From NCBI GenBank assembly GCA_009885735.1, contig VFKD01000084.1, forward strand, positions 1 through 41,802: DNA of 41,802 nt. Direction: 5' to 3'. The notes under the pieces are model-generated. The model was not told the origin of the DNA, did no database searches, and saw only the letters and a list, made by a program, of their open reading frames with translations. Positions within the stretch are counted from its first letter, which is position 1. Each line of letters starts with the position of its first letter. The position numbers and the translations under genes were made by a program. Below are positions 11,463-27,148 of this stretch, in pieces. The DNA is from a bacterium. Its GTDB lineage: Bacteria; Armatimonadota; Chthonomonadetes; Chthonomonadales; CAJBBX01.

Positions 11463-13634
11463 TTACCGTGGCTTTGCCGATGCCTGGCTAGAGTAGGCGC
11501 TCTCCTGCCCGCTGCTTCTCACTGCCGTCACTCTGTAGTAGTAGGTCACGCCCGAGGTGACGCTCGTGTCGATGAACGACGTCCCGGCAGTGATCGTCGC
11601 CCGGAGTGTGTACCCACTGCCTGTGGTGGTGGACCGGTATATCCGGTTCTGCGTCACCCCGGAGCTGACAGACTGTATCCACTTGAGTGTCACCTTCGCC
11701 TTCGCCGCCGTGGCGGTCAGCTTCGTTGGCGCTGCGAGTGGAGGCGGTGCGGTGGGAGTGGCGCTCACCTCGCTGGAGTTGGGGCTCACTCCCCCTAAGC
11801 TTACGGCGGCGACCACGTAGTAGTAGGTGACTCCGTTCGTCAGGCCGGTATCGGTGAAGCCTGTCCCAACCACCTGGCCCACGATCAGATAGGGTCCGCC
11901 GGGCACCGTGGCCCGCTGCACGTTGTAGTAGTCGGCCGAGGCGCTCGCACTCCACGAGAGCGACACCTGCGCGTTGCTCGCCGTGGCGGTCAGATTGGTC
12001 GGAGCAGCAGGGGGTGGTGGGATGCCGCCCTCCGCCGCCACAACGGCTGCGTATGCGTCTACCAGTCCGCGCCCGAACGTGGTATCGTACCCTACAGCGC
12101 CCAGGTCCCTGGCGGTAGTGAAAAGGCAGTTCTCCACCGCAGTATTGGACAGGGACGGATTCGCCGACCAAGCCAGCGCGAGCGCCCCGGTAACGTGCGG
12201 CGCTGCCATGGATGTACCGGAGTAGATGTCCCATGCGATAGGCCATGCCCGTACGGTTGTGCTCGAGCCTGCCTGACCAAGAAGAATCGCGCCGTCCGTG
12301 TCGGACACTGATACGGAGGGTATCCAATACGGCAAAGTGCCCTCCAAAACCCCTTCGAAGTTCCCAGGAGCGTTGTTGTACATGACAACGGCCGTAGCGC
12401 CGGCGTTCATGGCGTTCGTCACTTTATCCACGAAGGTGGCGTCGCCCCGCTGGATGAGCGCTATATTCCCGGCAACGGCAGGTGGAAACTGCCCCGCAAA
12501 CCCTCGCCCGCAGTCCACGATTATTCCCGTGATTCCTTGGGTGGTCGACGCACCCCAAAAGGAGATGGACGAGAACGTCTGCGTGGTCCGTACATAACTC
12601 TCGATCATCCCCCAGGTGTCAGGAACCGAAGACAGAACGCTCACTCCCGGCGCCGAAATGTCGAGCCCCGTTCCAGTGTTGGACCACGACGCATGGGCGT
12701 TGTTGGCGTCCACCGCCCCCACAGCAATATTCGTTGGGTAACCGGCCGGATAGATGAGAGCTGCGCCTCCGTCATTCCCCGCGGCGCAAACGATCAAGGC
12801 TCCTTTGCTGCGCATCTCCTCAAAGAAGAGCTGCTCGGTGGTAGAAGGAGCCGCGCCCCCTAGACTGAGATTGACTACCTTGCAGTTAGCCTCCTCCACG
12901 AGCCATCGCACTCCGGCCATAACCGTTTCGACGGTTCCACCCCACATATCCAGTACGCGGGCGTGATAGAGGTTCGCCGAATAGGCGGCGCCCAGAACTC
13001 CCCTTGTGTTGTTTGCAGCGAGGATCGTCCCCGCGACATGCGTGCCGTGCGTCTCCGTCACCCACTCATTCCAATCTTCGTCAAAGGCGAACTCGAAGAT
13101 GGGATCGTTGTCGCCCCAAATCGTATCGATACCGCCGCGATAGTTGGGCGCGATGTCCGGATGGTTGTAGTCTACGCCGGTGTCCGCAACGCCCACATTG
13201 ATTCCAGCCCCAGTAATCCCTCGGGAGTGGGTCTCTGTGGCGCGCGTGGTGATGAGCCCGTACAGTCCGTTGTTCAGGGCGGGGACGAGCTGCTCGTCTT
13301 CCAAACCGAGAGTGTATCTCATCGGTACGCGCTCCACGTATGCTACGCGCGGATTCCGGGCTATCGCCTGAGCGACCGCGTTACTCGCCCCTTTAATGGC
13401 CACTGCTTTTACTCCCGGAAACCTTGATTTCAGTTGCGCTCCCAGACGTCGTATGGCGGCAATATTCTCGTGGGAGACTCCAGCGCGGAATCCAACAAAG
13501 TACTCCCCGGGAGAGAAGTCGGGACGCATCCGTGAATTGGCGATTCCTCTTCCTCCCTGGGCTTGCGCGGAAACAACGGCAGGGCCTAGTGCGGCCAATG
13601 CCATCACGAACAGAATCAGAAATCGATGTTTCAT
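11463..13634 (-). CDS. Secreted subtilisin-like serine protease (S8) with PA and two FN3 domains
   Basis: 723 aa. ATG at 13634 with GAGGA upstream starts a signal peptide (MKHRFLILFVMALAALGPAV). An I9-like propeptide spans about residues 40-110 (GEYFVGFRAGVSHENIAAIR). The S8 domain has the full triad: Asp151 in VADTGVDYNHPDI, His196 in ETHGTHVAGTI, Ser475 in YSGTSMAAPHVTG, plus oxyanion Asn287 in CAAGNDGG. A protease-associated (PA) domain is inserted between Asn287 and Ser475 (NIALIQRGDATFVDKVTNAM, AGATAVVMYNN). Two FN3 domains end the protein, each starting APT(N/K)LTATA and ending with a YYY(V/R)V strand. It degrades extracellular protein and the FN3 modules probably aid surface or substrate contact. 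It appears to be monocistronic. Confidence 0.95.
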   Translation of the reverse strand: MKHRFLILFVMALAALGPAVVSAQAQGGRGIANSRMRPDFSPGEYFVGFRAGVSHENIAAIRRLGAQLKSRFPGVKAVAIKGASNAVAQAIARNPRVAYVERVPMRYTLGLEDEQLVPALNNGLYGLITTRATETHSRGITGAGINVGVADTGVDYNHPDIAPNYRGGIDTIWGDNDPIFEFAFDEDWNEWVTETHGTHVAGTILAANNTRGVLGAAYSANLYHARVLDMWGGTVETVMAGVRWLVEEANCKVVNLSLGGAAPSTTEQLFFEEMRSKGALIVCAAGNDGGAALIYPAGYPTNIAVGAVDANNAHASWSNTGTGLDISAPGVSVLSSVPDTWGMIESYVRTTQTFSSISFWGASTTQGITGIIVDCGRGFAGQFPPAVAGNIALIQRGDATFVDKVTNAMNAGATAVVMYNNAPGNFEGVLEGTLPYWIPSVSVSDTDGAILLGQAGSSTTVRAWPIAWDIYSGTSMAAPHVTGALALAWSANPSLSNTAVENCLFTTARDLGAVGYDTTFGRGLVDAYAAVVAAEGGIPPPPAAPTNLTATASNAQVSLSWSASASADYYNVQRATVPGGPYLIVGQVVGTGFTDTGLTNGVTYYYVVAAVSLGGVSPNSSEVSATPTAPPPLAAPTKLTATAAKAKVTLKWIQSVSSGVTQNRIYRSTTTGSGYTLRATITAGTSFIDTSVTSGVTYYYRVTAVRSSGQESAYSSQASAKPR

Positions 13635-13841: not shown

Positions 13842-14318
13842 CTACGGAGCCGGCTGGTCGATCCGCCTCGTTGCGCCCCTCGGAAGAATCTGGAAAGCGA
13901 CCAGCTCCAAGTTTGTGGCTCCTTCGTTGCGGACGATGTGCCCACCTTCACCATCATCCACGAAGCAAGTGCCCGCAGGGTGGACATTCGGCGTGCTGGG
14001 ATCATCGCTGTGATACTCGGTTGCCGTGCCGGATTTGACCGAGATGATGGACGGGCCAGGGTGAGAGTGCCAGCCGGTGTGCCCACCCGGTACGAGAGTG
14101 TTGTACACCACATATACGTCCGAAGAGCCTTTGGTCTTGATTTCGACATTGTTGATGTCGCTCTTGCTGTGGCTGTGGATTTCCTCCAACCGCGTCGGCC
14201 CCGCGATGATAGTGGTGCTGAGCCCCAGGCTGGGCGTCGCCCAGGCGACCCTCAATGCGATTAGTCCGACTACACTGGCGACGACGGTTCCTGCCAACAT
14301 CAGCTTAAATCTGCTCAT
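13842..14318 (-). CDS. Exported cupin-domain protein, putative SARP target
   Basis: 158 aa. ATG at 14318 preceded by GAGGAGAGAG. The N-terminus is a signal peptide or anchor (MSRFKLMLAGTVVASVVGLI). The rest is a single cupin barrel: VPGGHTGWHSHPGPSIISVK (metal-binding motif 1 with G-x-H-x-H and the later Glu in GTATEYHS) and a second motif with PAGTCFVDDGEGGHIVRNEG (His). Small exported cupins of this type bind a metal and either sense or oxidise small ligands; no substrate can be assigned. The gene sits after the SARP-type regulator but has its own promoter, since a strong terminator (14432-14473) separates them and the promoter carries the same 19-bp operator as the regulator's promoter. 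Confidence 0.88.
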   Translation of the reverse strand: MSRFKLMLAGTVVASVVGLIALRVAWATPSLGLSTTIIAGPTRLEEIHSHSKSDINNVEIKTKGSSDVYVVYNTLVPGGHTGWHSHPGPSIISVKSGTATEYHSDDPSTPNVHPAGTCFVDDGEGGHIVRNEGATNLELVAFQILPRGATRRIDQPAP

Positions 14319-14372: not shown

Positions 14373-14405
14373 AGTTTAGCGAGCAACCCTGACGGAACCC
14401 TGAAA
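14373..14405 (-). promoter_or_regulatory. Cupin promoter with SARP-type direct-repeat operator
   Basis: Read on the minus strand: TTTCAGGGTTCCGTCAGGG (14405-14387), 8 nt TTGCTCGC, then -10-like TAAACT (14378-14373). The operator is two TCAGGG repeats with 11-bp period, occupying the -35 region. The 19-bp word is identical to the one at 18418-18436 with the same 8-bp spacing to the -10. The ATG is at 14318, giving a leader of roughly 50 nt. Confidence 0.8.
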
Positions 14406-14431
14406 TGGATGCTCCGGCCAAAAAAAGAGTC

Positions 14432-14473
14432 AAAAAAGTACGGGTAGGAGGCGACATACCTGCTGCCCGTACT
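14432..14473 (-). terminator. Rho-independent terminator of the SARP-type gene
   Basis: On the minus strand AGTACGGGCAGCAGG and CCTCCTACCCGTACT form a long stem (two mismatches) around TATGTCGC, followed by TTTTTTG. It starts 18 bp after the regulator's stop codon and separates it from the cupin promoter. Confidence 0.88.
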
Positions 14474-14491
14474 ACCACCACCGCTCACTTG

Positions 14492-17400
14492 TCACTCGAG
14501 CGCGTACTCTACAGCCTCTTCCCAGCTCATAGCTCGGCCCTGTGTCCACGCCGCAGTGTATGATTCTTCGTCCATCGCTTCGCGTAAACTCACCGCCGCC
14601 TGTGTCAGTTTCTCACGTTCAATCGGCGGAATCGGCGCTCCCAGATGCTCGCGGAGCGCCTCCGCTGCGCCAAATAGTCGCGCAGCAGACTGGGAGTCCT
14701 GTTGCGCAAGTGATAGCCTGGCGACCGACTCGAGAGCCCCGACTCCGACTAGTCTGTCTCCCACTTCGCGCAAGAGGCGAAGGCAATCAACCAGGAGGAA
14801 CCGTGCATGACCGTAGTCTGCTTGATCCAGGGCGAGACATCCGAGGTGAAGCAAGCATATACCGATGCCCGGTTTTTCGGCAAGATCGCGTTTGATGGCC
14901 AAGCTCTGTTCAAACAACGTACGTGCTCTGGCGTATTCCCCCTGAGCTTTGGCGATCAATCCGAGGTTGTTGAGATTGACCGACTGCGAGATTCTGCTAC
15001 CGGTCTCCAGGTCCAGCGCAAGACCTTCTTCGAGAAACACGCGTGCCTCGCCAAGCTCACCTTGCTCGATTGCAGTCATACCAAGGTTGGTCAAGACACT
15101 CGACTGCCACGGACGATTACCGATCTCCCGCATGAAGGCCAAACTTTCTTCGAACAGCGTGCGCGCTCGCGAAGACTGGCCTTGCTCCAGTGCGAGTATT
15201 CCTAGATTGTTGAGCGTGCCGCACGCATTTTCACGGTCACCAAGCTCCCTTCGGATCTGTAGGTTCTCTTCGTGGTAAACCTGTGCCTGCGCATAGTCTC
15301 CCTGTACGTCGGCCGCCAACCCTAGATTGTTCAGGACGAGCGCCTGTATCTCCCGGTCGCCCACTTCCCGCGCAATTATCAGGCTCTCGTCAAAAAGTGC
15401 ATAGGCTTGCACGAAGTCTCCCTGCATTCGAGACGCTGCACCGAGAAAGTTGAGCGACGTGGCAACGCCTTCCCTGTCCCCGAGATTTCGCCAGACGGTC
15501 AGTGCTTGTTCATGCAGCTCTCGGGCCTCTGCAAATTCACCCTGCTCGAAAGCTAGAATGCCCGCTCCGTGGAACGTATGGCCCCGCGCTCGGTCAAACT
15601 CGATCGTTTGATCAGCCAACTCTCCGCTTGCATTGGATTGCTTATGAGCGATTTCTCCCAGTCGCAAAGCGCCAGCGCACCATTCTCGTCCCTCTCTGAA
15701 GTAACCGCGAATTCGCCAGAACCGCGCGAGAGCCCCGGCGAGAAGCATACAGGAAATGGCATCCGCTCCGCCGGAAGAGGACCACGCCAGCGCCGCCCGA
15801 AGATTATCGTTCTCGGAGTCAAGGGTCTCCAAAAAACGCTTCTGTTCCTTACCGTGCAAGATTTCGCGGTTAGGCTTTGTGAGCTTGAGATAGTAGGAGA
15901 GGTGCCGGTCGTTGATGGCCTCTCCCTCTCTCAGAGCAGCAAGCCGCTCTTGACCGTACTGGCGCAGCGTTTCCAACATCCGGAATCGGAACGCCCCGGC
16001 TTCCGTCTCGCTAGACAGTACTAGCGAGCACTCCCGTAGTTGCTCCAGATAGTCTAAGGCGAGCGGCTCCTCGCACACCTGCGCAGCCGCCTCAATGCTC
16101 CAGCCTCCACGGAAGACCGATAAGCGCGAGAAAAAGCGCTGGAGCTCGGGTGGCAGAAGCCGATAGCTCCACTCCACCGCACCGCGCAGGGTCCTCTGCC
16201 GTTCGGAGACATCTCTCTTGCGGGTAGCCAGAAAGTCGAACCGGTGCGAGAGCTGCGCAAGCATCTGAGTTGGAGTGAGGACCTGTACTCTGGCAGCTGC
16301 GAGCTCTATAGCGAGCGGGATACCCTCGAGTCCGCCCACCAGAGCCGCAACGGCCGCCGCATTGGCGTTGTTGACCTGGAAGTAGGGGATAACCTGCTGC
16401 GCCCGGTCGATAAATAGCTGCACGCTGTCATACAGCGAGAGCTCTTCGGGAGTCTCCTCCGTTCCCGGCACCGGCAGCGGTGGGAGAGAGAATCCGCGCT
16501 CGGCCGAGAGACCTAGAAGCTGCCGCGAAGTGGTGAGTACCTTTAGCTCAGGAACGCCGGAAAGGAGCGTCCGCACCACGTCGGTCCCGCCCTCCAGCAG
16601 ATGCTCAAGGTTATCCAGTACGAGAAGCGTCGGCTTCTCCGAGAGCGCTTCCACTGCCTGCTCCAGAGGCTCTTTCTGTGGGGAACGGACGACGTCCAGG
16701 CTATCTAGAATCGCTCCGGCAATGTGGGCCGGGTCACGAAGGTCCGCGAGCGGCACGAAATAGACGGCGCCGGCAAACGAGTCCGCCAGCTGCTCCGCCA
16801 CTTCCACTGAGAGTCGCGACTTTCCGTTCCCTGCGGGGCCCGTTATGGTGACGAGCCGAACGGAATACGAGCGAAGCATCTCTCGCAGCTGCGCTATCTC
16901 TTCGAGTCGACCGAAAAAGCGCGTAAATCGTGGAGGCACGTTCGGCCTGTGTCCCGAATCCGCGGCAAGCGGACCAAAATCCGTTTGAGGCATTCCTGGA
17001 TACTCAACCTGAAACAGCCTCCGAGCCTCTGGTATATCCCGCAGCCGCCAGACCCCCAGATCCACAAGCCGAATTCCACCCTCGTTCCGACCGGATGCGA
17101 GGGAAGTCGTGGAATCAGAGGCAATGATCTGGCCCCCATGCGCCGCGGTGAGCATTCGGGTTGCTTGCTGTAGCGCGATTCCGTGATACCGACCTTCTTC
17201 GCCCGATTGGCTGACGTCTCCGGAGTGCAGCACCATGCGGACTCTTATAGAAGCCACTCCATCGGGCCAGGTCTCTGACGCCAGCGCCTGCTGGGCCGCG
17301 ACTGCACAAGAGAGTGCGCTGCTGGCGGTGGTAAACGCCATCACAAAGCCATCTCCCGTTTCCTGTACCTCCTGACCGCCCTGCCGCAAGACCTCTTGCC

Positions 17401-18337
17401 GAATCAGCAGGTGGTGGCGTTCCCTGGCCGCCAAGTACTCCTCCGGGGCGGTTTGGAACAGTCGCTTGCTGCCCTCTATGTCGGTCATGAGGAAGGTGAT
17501 GGTTGCCGGCCTGCGGCTCAGAAGTGGTGAACCGGCTGACTTGCGGGCGCGTTTTCTGGGAGGTTCCCCGGAATCCGGCGCGGCAGTCCCTGATCTGCTC
17601 TCGATCTGGCTGACCAGCGACCGAAGCCTTGGAGAAGGCTCCCCGCCCACCTCCTCGGCCAGCAGCCGTTGGGACTCCTTGTAGTGACGGAGCGCGGCTC
17701 CGGATTGGCCATCCGCGTCCAGAAGGCGGATCAGAATCTCCTGGCTCTCTTCTCTAAGCGGATCGATAGATGCCGCGTGACGGGCATGTGTGAGCGCTGA
17801 GTGCGTGTCGCCGATTTCCTCAAGGTGGTTCACCAACGCGAGGACGGAATCGAAGAACAGCCCATTCAACCGTTCTTGTTCGACCGAAATCCAATCCTCG
17901 TAAAAACCGGGCAGTAGCGGCCCCTGGTAGAGTTCCACCGCTTTGCTCAGGTACTGTGCGCGTTCCAAAGTACTCCCGGCCTTCGCGGACGCCTTGATCG
18001 CCGTTTCGAATTCCGCGACATCGGTGGTGACGGTGGAAGGATTCAGACCCACACTAAAGCGGTCCGCCCGGATCACGGTTCCCTGCGGCACCCCAGGCGG
18101 CTCGAACTGATTGCGGAGGCTGGAGAGGGCGACTGAGAGGCTGTTGCGCAGCGTGAGCGCGTCGCTCTCGGGCCACAGCATCTCGATGAGAATCTCGCGG
18201 GAATGAGCGTGACGCAGGTGGAAGGCCAAGTAGGAGAAGAGAGATGCGACCTTCTGGCTCTTGAAACGGGTGAATGCCTTCTCCCCGCACCGGGCCTCAA
18301 GACTGCCAAGCAATGTTACGCGCCAGAGGTTATTCAT
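14492..18337 (-). CDS. SARP-type regulator: wHTH-BTAD, nucleotidyl cyclase-like, NTPase, TPR
   Basis: 1281 aa. ATG at 18337 (MNNLWRVTLLGSLEA) with AGGAG upstream. Order: winged helix about 1-95 (FKSQKVASLFSYLAFHLRHA, RNSLSVALSSLRNQF); BTAD about 95-245 (LYQGPLLPGFYEDWI, RHAASIDPLREESQEIL); class III nucleotidyl cyclase domain about 275-445 with metal Asp286 (TFLMTDIEGS) and Asp329 (ETGDGFVMAF); STAND/NB-ARC-like NTPase with Walker A GPAGNGKS at 500-507, Walker B TLLVLDNLEHLLEG, sensor TTSRQLLG and GLEGIPLAIELAAAR; C-terminal TPR repeats of ~40 residues (GDYAQAQVYHEENLQIRREL). In the cyclase the usual catalytic Asn (N-x-A-x-R) is Gln390 while Arg394 is kept, so activity is doubtful. Such STAND regulators switch with nucleotide and ligand. 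Its own promoter and the cupin's share an operator, implying autoregulation. Confidence 0.93.
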   Translation of the reverse strand: MNNLWRVTLLGSLEARCGEKAFTRFKSQKVASLFSYLAFHLRHAHSREILIEMLWPESDALTLRNSLSVALSSLRNQFEPPGVPQGTVIRADRFSVGLNPSTVTTDVAEFETAIKASAKAGSTLERAQYLSKAVELYQGPLLPGFYEDWISVEQERLNGLFFDSVLALVNHLEEIGDTHSALTHARHAASIDPLREESQEILIRLLDADGQSGAALRHYKESQRLLAEEVGGEPSPRLRSLVSQIESRSGTAAPDSGEPPRKRARKSAGSPLLSRRPATITFLMTDIEGSKRLFQTAPEEYLAARERHHLLIRQEVLRQGGQEVQETGDGFVMAFTTASSALSCAVAAQQALASETWPDGVASIRVRMVLHSGDVSQSGEEGRYHGIALQQATRMLTAAHGGQIIASDSTTSLASGRNEGGIRLVDLGVWRLRDIPEARRLFQVEYPGMPQTDFGPLAADSGHRPNVPPRFTRFFGRLEEIAQLREMLRSYSVRLVTITGPAGNGKSRLSVEVAEQLADSFAGAVYFVPLADLRDPAHIAGAILDSLDVVRSPQKEPLEQAVEALSEKPTLLVLDNLEHLLEGGTDVVRTLLSGVPELKVLTTSRQLLGLSAERGFSLPPLPVPGTEETPEELSLYDSVQLFIDRAQQVIPYFQVNNANAAAVAALVGGLEGIPLAIELAAARVQVLTPTQMLAQLSHRFDFLATRKRDVSERQRTLRGAVEWSYRLLPPELQRFFSRLSVFRGGWSIEAAAQVCEEPLALDYLEQLRECSLVLSSETEAGAFRFRMLETLRQYGQERLAALREGEAINDRHLSYYLKLTKPNREILHGKEQKRFLETLDSENDNLRAALAWSSSGGADAISCMLLAGALARFWRIRGYFREGREWCAGALRLGEIAHKQSNASGELADQTIEFDRARGHTFHGAGILAFEQGEFAEARELHEQALTVWRNLGDREGVATSLNFLGAASRMQGDFVQAYALFDESLIIAREVGDREIQALVLNNLGLAADVQGDYAQAQVYHEENLQIRRELGDRENACGTLNNLGILALEQGQSSRARTLFEESLAFMREIGNRPWQSSVLTNLGMTAIEQGELGEARVFLEEGLALDLETGSRISQSVNLNNLGLIAKAQGEYARARTLFEQSLAIKRDLAEKPGIGICLLHLGCLALDQADYGHARFLLVDCLRLLREVGDRLVGVGALESVARLSLAQQDSQSAARLFGAAEALREHLGAPIPPIEREKLTQAAVSLREAMDEESYTAAWTQGRAMSWEEAVEYALE

Positions 18338-18403
18338 TCCGACTCCTGGAAACGGCACGTTAACGCAGATCGGTTTGACCCTGCTGCGCGCTGATCCACT
18401 CCC

Positions 18404-18436
18404 ATCGTAATGTCACGCCCTGACGGAACCCTGAAA
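18404..18436 (-). promoter_or_regulatory. SARP-type gene promoter with direct-repeat operator
   Basis: Read on the minus strand: TTTCAGGGTTCCGTCAGGG (18436-18418), 8 nt CGTGACAT, then -10-like TACGAT (18409-18404). The operator word and its 8-bp spacing to the -10 are identical to the cupin promoter while the surrounding bases differ. It lies 81 bp upstream of the regulator ATG. Confidence 0.8.
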
Positions 18437-26813: not shown

Positions 26814-27148
26814 TCATCACATACATTATACCATCAATCCTGAGTCTGTCAATAGCCAGTCTTTCTGGAATCAGAGATCTCCGGGGATCTGGGGAGGAGG
26901 GGAGAGGGCGCGGTCGCGCTGGAAGAGGCCAATTTCGACGGCGTGGCGACTTGGGCAAGCAAAGCCTTTCGAGCAGGCGGTGGAGTTGGAACGGCGGTAG
27001 AGAGGTTTCTTGGGAGGCCGGGTTGTAGAGGGTAAGTAGAGAGTGTGGTGTTAGAGTGACCGCGTTCTCGAGTGACAATCGAGTCGTTTCAGTGTTCTTA
27101 CCTTAAGAGAAACGAATGGACCTCAGGACCTGCGCCGACCCCAATCCA

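Follow-up and report, generated by a model that had tools for sequence, protein, structure and literature searches.

An identical 19-bp word, CCCTGACGGAACCCTGAAA, stands in front of two adjacent genes in the 41,802-nucleotide stretch of DNA analysed here (the window), one encoding a large SARP-type regulator (ATG at 18337) and the other a cupin (ATG at 14318). The question raised by this locus is what the two copies do. The first-pass annotation, which placed both copies and assigned both genes correctly, described a compact autoregulated circuit in which a nucleotide-sensing SARP controls an exported cupin. Judged from sequence, both 19-mers are probably operators of the adjacent large SARP, which would form an activator-type, autoregulated module that includes the exported cupin. 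The exact word was found twice in the window (0.01 expected; Table 1), and no further copy was found there at ≤3 mismatches.

Table 1. Features of the regulator-cupin locus, in window coordinates.
Feature	Position	Strand	Basis
Putative operator 1 (regulator promoter), TTTCAGGGTTCCGTCAGGG, two direct repeats of 11-bp period	18418..18436	-	sequence
-10-like hexamer TACGAT, 8 bp past operator 1	18404..18409	-	sequence
Large SARP-type regulator, 1281 aa from ATG 18337 (ORF open to GTG 18358)	14492..18337	-	profile matches, alignments
Regulator wHTH-BTAD part	about 17594-18337	-	profile matches, alignments
Regulator class III cyclase-like region	about 17006-17503	-	match to cyclase Ma1120
Regulator NB-ARC/AAA region	about 16520-16921	-	AAA_16, NB-ARC matches
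Regulator TPRs	about 14858-15595	-	TPR matches
Hairpin + U-run, probable intrinsic terminator, between regulator and cupin promoter	14437..14473	-	folding, z -1.8, modest
Putative operator 2 (cupin promoter), TTTCAGGGTTCCGTCAGGG, same as operator 1	14387..14405	-	sequence
-10-like hexamer TAAACT, 8 bp past operator 2	14373..14378	-	sequence
Single-domain cupin, probably exported	13842..14318	-	hydrophobic N-terminus, AxA|TP-like cleavage site by eye; HxH motif

Read on the minus strand, both sites are TTTCAGGGTTCCGTCAGGG, a TCAGGG direct repeat of 11-bp period with the repeat words TTCAGGG/GTCAGGG, and at both promoters exactly 8 bp separate it from a TAnnnT-type hexamer, as had been claimed. 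A perfect TCAGGG-N5-TCAGGG occurred twice in the window, each time as one of the operator copies. The earlier statement that the window holds no third paired site is true for the TCAGGG word at ≤3 mismatches; a weak 11-bp repeat of a different word (GTAGAGGG/GTAGAGAG), followed by TAGAGT, was observed at 27025-27060 (+) without a convincing gene behind it, and is probably due to chance. The surroundings of the two copies were unlike each other, with near-random agreement at 3 of 12 upstream bases and 1 of 8 gap bases. A sigma-70-like -35/-10 pair was sought at both window sites and none was found. SARP promoters have been described as carrying direct repeats whose period is 11 or 22 bp, the 3' one lying 8 bp away from the -10 element (PMC10936776), so the geometry itself is already known. 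Both window sites have the 11-bp period and the 8 bp to a -10-like hexamer, which upholds the proposed likeness to Streptomyces SARP sites, and the same geometry recurs with other words at other SARP genes.

The regulator begins with an OmpR-type wHTH followed by BTAD (profile match 7.7e-22), which is the architecture of the SARP family, and continues with the central NB-ARC/NOD and C-terminal TPR of large, AfsR-type SARPs. It aligned with AfsR over the SARP domain and NOD-TPR (AfsR 474-1156), and with EmbR over wHTH-BTAD. The closest comparison is AfsR at the afs box of Streptomyces coelicolor (PMC10936776), which shares wHTH-BTAD, NOD and TPR, a pair of 11-bp direct repeats covering the -35 region, weak promoter elements and a TTCAG-like core (the afsS -35 element is TTCAGC). 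Unlike AfsR, the window regulator has an extra cyclase-like domain and other residues at the base-contact positions, it would act on an exported cupin gene and on its own gene rather than on afsS, and its phylum is not Actinomycetota. The base-contacting T88 and R92 of AfsR align to Val and Ser in the window regulator, and details of recognition must therefore differ. PimR-type SARP-LAL proteins (Streptomyces natalensis, PMC5930380) likewise combine a SARP domain with a cyclase-like region that is degenerate and with a LAL-type ATPase half lacking a C-terminal LuxR HTH, and have an operator made of direct repeats. The window regulator matched this architecture in its cyclase-like region, whereas its C-terminus resembles the TPR of AfsR. 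PimR recognizes a triplet of CGGCAAG heptamers with 4-nt spacers, upstream of the -35 box without overlap (PMC5930380), in contrast to the two TCAGGG repeats placed 8 bp from the -10 hexamer here. EmbR of Mycobacterium tuberculosis shares the wHTH-BTAD part, but has a C-terminal FHA domain and lacks NOD, TPR and the cyclase-like region.

The description of the regulator as nucleotide-sensing found no support. The window copy of the cyclase-like region retains both metal Asp residues and the Arg, but the canonical Asn is Gln, and the orthologue from another family of the phylum (genome G211) reads TAIAES where the window has TDIEGS, so that the first metal Asp is gone. The two Asp, transition-state Asn and Arg of an active class III nucleotidyl cyclase are thus not all present, and the domain, read from these residues, is degenerate. 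Because Ma1120 is likewise without Asn at the aligned place, the domain may still have cyclase activity.

The cupin gave a Pfam Cupin_2 match of 5.8e-5, under the curated cut-off. A simple terminator scan missed the hairpin between regulator and cupin, which folding revealed with modest significance; with its U-run, this hairpin makes the cupin plausibly its own transcription unit. The cupin is directly followed by the gene of an exported S8 protease (11463-13634, minus strand), which has PA and fn3 domains and in front of which no TCAGGG site was found. Among the scanned neighbours, which include the cupin, the S8 protease, and SWIM, SNF2 helicase and GHL6 proteins, no secondary-metabolite cluster was seen.

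Conservation of the word was assessed within the genome and beyond it. At ≤2 mismatches, three sites were found in the whole genome, namely the two window sites and one on contig C29 (7472-7488, 2 mismatches). The C29 site is identical at 17 of 19 positions, has the same 8-bp gap to TAAACT, and lies before a paralogous cupin (53% identical). It comes after a similar regulator of which the contig holds the C-terminal portion, the DNA-binding part falling outside the contig. A decayed fn3 C-terminal remnant was also observed downstream of this cupin (L008, 6440-6700, minus strand); it resembles the fn3 end of the S8 protease that follows the cupin in the window.

Among the 291 genomes of the phylum, the exact pattern occurred in three: the genome itself, G211 and G217. 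The G217 match falls within a coding gene and was dismissed as a chance occurrence. G211 carries a diverged module with sites 18-19/19 identical. Its first site precedes a cupin (64% identical) and then the regulator (DNA-binding part 70% identical, with a Trans_reg_C match), and its second precedes a gene for an exported HAF/fn3 protein, with the hexamer CACACT, not TAnnnT. The recognition helix of the G211 regulator, NSLSVALSSLR, is that of the window regulator, and the repeat word is also the same. Since a single operator in G211 precedes both cupin and regulator, which are neighbours on one strand, autoregulation would persist there in another arrangement. Over the five promoters compared, the 19-mer was identical at 16-19 of 19 positions, the 12 upstream bases agreed at 3-6 and the 8 gap bases at 0-5; that the 19-mer is retained amid near-random flanks and gaps points to selection acting on the operator. 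A scan of the genome collection for TTTCAGGGTTYYGTCAGGG gave 19 stretches, against about 7 expected by chance by our own estimate with equal base use assumed, and only the G211 contig (L027) among them was recognized as a regulator-cupin module. The 19-base pattern was also seen repeatedly in Lachnospiraceae records (L009-L011, L013-L015, L018-L020, L022, L023, L025), in places several times in a single genome, and may there be part of an unrelated repeat.

The genome contains 26 SARP-like matches, some of which are fragments at contig ends. A genome-wide search for a site with the 8-bp gap, as suggested in the first-pass annotation, was run with the looser pattern TCAG-N7-TCAG-N10-TANNNT and returned few matches: four in 4.99 Mb, and none in a reversed control. 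All four were on SARP-bearing contigs (the two window sites, the paralogous cupin and an exported TolB-like gene). Direct repeats placed 7-9 bp before TAnnnT were also counted by period in the noncoding DNA of SARP contigs, in SARP regions of other genomes and in 40 control contigs. At period 11 there were 16 sites on SARP contigs compared to a mean of 2.4 at other periods (Poisson 8e-9), 23 compared to 6.0 in SARP regions of other genomes (1e-7), and 7 compared to 3.2 in control contigs (0.046). Exact 7/7 repeats of period 11 numbered 6, 8 and 0, respectively. The site rate alone differed weakly between SARP and control contigs (p=0.08).

Genes behind several of these sites encode HAF-repeat, PKD, TIG/TolB-like or otherwise exported-looking proteins, or the SARP itself. 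Other repeat words included GGGATA (contig C283) and TGAGAGAG (genome G010), and on contig C74 of G010, independently, a single word stands at a SARP gene and again at a second gene. Two tandem SARP genes, each followed by an exported-looking gene, were observed on contig C520 (L065, 1418-8657), with nearly the same GGGAAGAG repeat site in front of both exported-looking genes. An auto-site was undetectable at most SARP genes examined in the genome, and the upstream region of the closest paralogue, on contig C181 (59%), is without such a site.

Distances between predicted recognition helices and distances between repeat words were correlated over 20 regulator-site pairs (Mantel r=0.42, p=0.0004), a value to which common descent contributes and for which helix region and repeat positions were picked by the analyst. 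The correlation persisted without the closest homologues (r=0.37, p=0.005), the pairs being matched by proximity on one stretch and the sites taken from the same scan, so that false sites may be included. Recognition helix and 8-bp gap showed no correlation (r=0.07, p=0.21; p=0.41 without the closest homologues). In three regulators (L159, L160 and L168, from G003, G010 and G208), Arg replaces Ser in the recognition helix (LR.AL); these adjoin the words TAACG, TTAATG and GACATG/GAAATG, whereas the words of the LS group are AG-rich.

In the mechanism that we propose, two adjoining regulator protomers would occupy the pair of 11-bp repeats, the repeats would stand in for the missing -35 box, and the bound regulator would bring RNA polymerase to the TAnnnT hexamer that follows after 8 bp. 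In this way the regulator would activate its own gene (positive autoregulation), and the second identical site, behind the terminator, would let it activate the exported cupin gene. The compact regulator-cupin circuit drawn earlier is supported by its conservation across paralogous and distant modules and by the like layout, with other words, at other SARP genes; its autoregulation and activation, like binding, start sites and trigger, are what we infer from the letters of the DNA.

The alternative that survives best, though unlikely, is that the sites are SARP operators bound by another paralogue, such as the C181 or C29 regulator, with the window regulator merely a target. About 25 other SARP-like proteins are encoded in the genome, any of which could bind; the C181 protein has a similar recognition helix (ARNSLSAALSSLRHQ) and the C29 module has a related site. 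However, the word travels with the window-type regulator, as the same word and helix in G211 indicate, and other paralogues adjoin other words. It is less probable still that the adjacent regulator represses or merely competes with RNA polymerase, giving negative autoregulation and co-repression of the cupin. The repeats do span the -35 region, and a protein sitting there could also block polymerase, but the 8-bp position is that of SARP activators and the AfsR mechanism has been solved (PMC10936776). Moreover, no good -35 box is present that would call for repression.

OmpR/PhoB-type regulators also use 11-bp direct repeats (PHO boxes) over the -35 region, and the general likeness of layout would allow the sites to be operators of such a response regulator encoded elsewhere. 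At the afsS promoter, AfsR and PhoP recognize the same repeats (PMC10972967). We regard this reading as very improbable, since the exact word, in the genome as in G211, adjoins only regulators of this type, and at other SARP genes this geometry is combined with different words, which covary with the SARP helix. That the two exact copies, 4 kb apart, merely reflect recent promoter duplication, gene conversion or a mobile repeat without regulatory meaning is hardly credible given their unalike flanks, their equal placement relative to the -10 hexamer and retention of the word in modules diverged to 53-70% protein identity, and mobile-repeat and chance explanations were rejected on this conservation.

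Operation of both sites by the adjacent SARP thus remains our preferred reading. According to a review, SARPs occur exclusively in actinobacteria and are linked to antibiotic clusters (PMC10972967), and our literature search found no paper on SARPs in Armatimonadota, the probable phylum of this genome. The regulator described here departs from that description in its distribution, not in its architecture. WhiB was above cut-off in two of the 291 phylum genomes and not in the genome itself, a rarity which indicates that the phylum is not Actinomycetota. Operators of this type are already known. What appears to be new is their spread through a phylum outside the actinobacteria in the form of private regulator-operator modules. 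In an evenly balanced judgement, the genome and much of the phylum may hold parallel SARP modules with private words and the fixed 11-bp/8-bp geometry, each controlling itself and/or a neighbouring exported protein, in which a few helix positions set the word; this would be a readable SARP-DNA code outside actinobacteria. The SARP operator geometry appears to serve exported proteins in another phylum. The many words, each beside its own regulator, are natural pairs for working out the DNA specificity of SARPs, and a source of orthogonal activator-promoter pairs.
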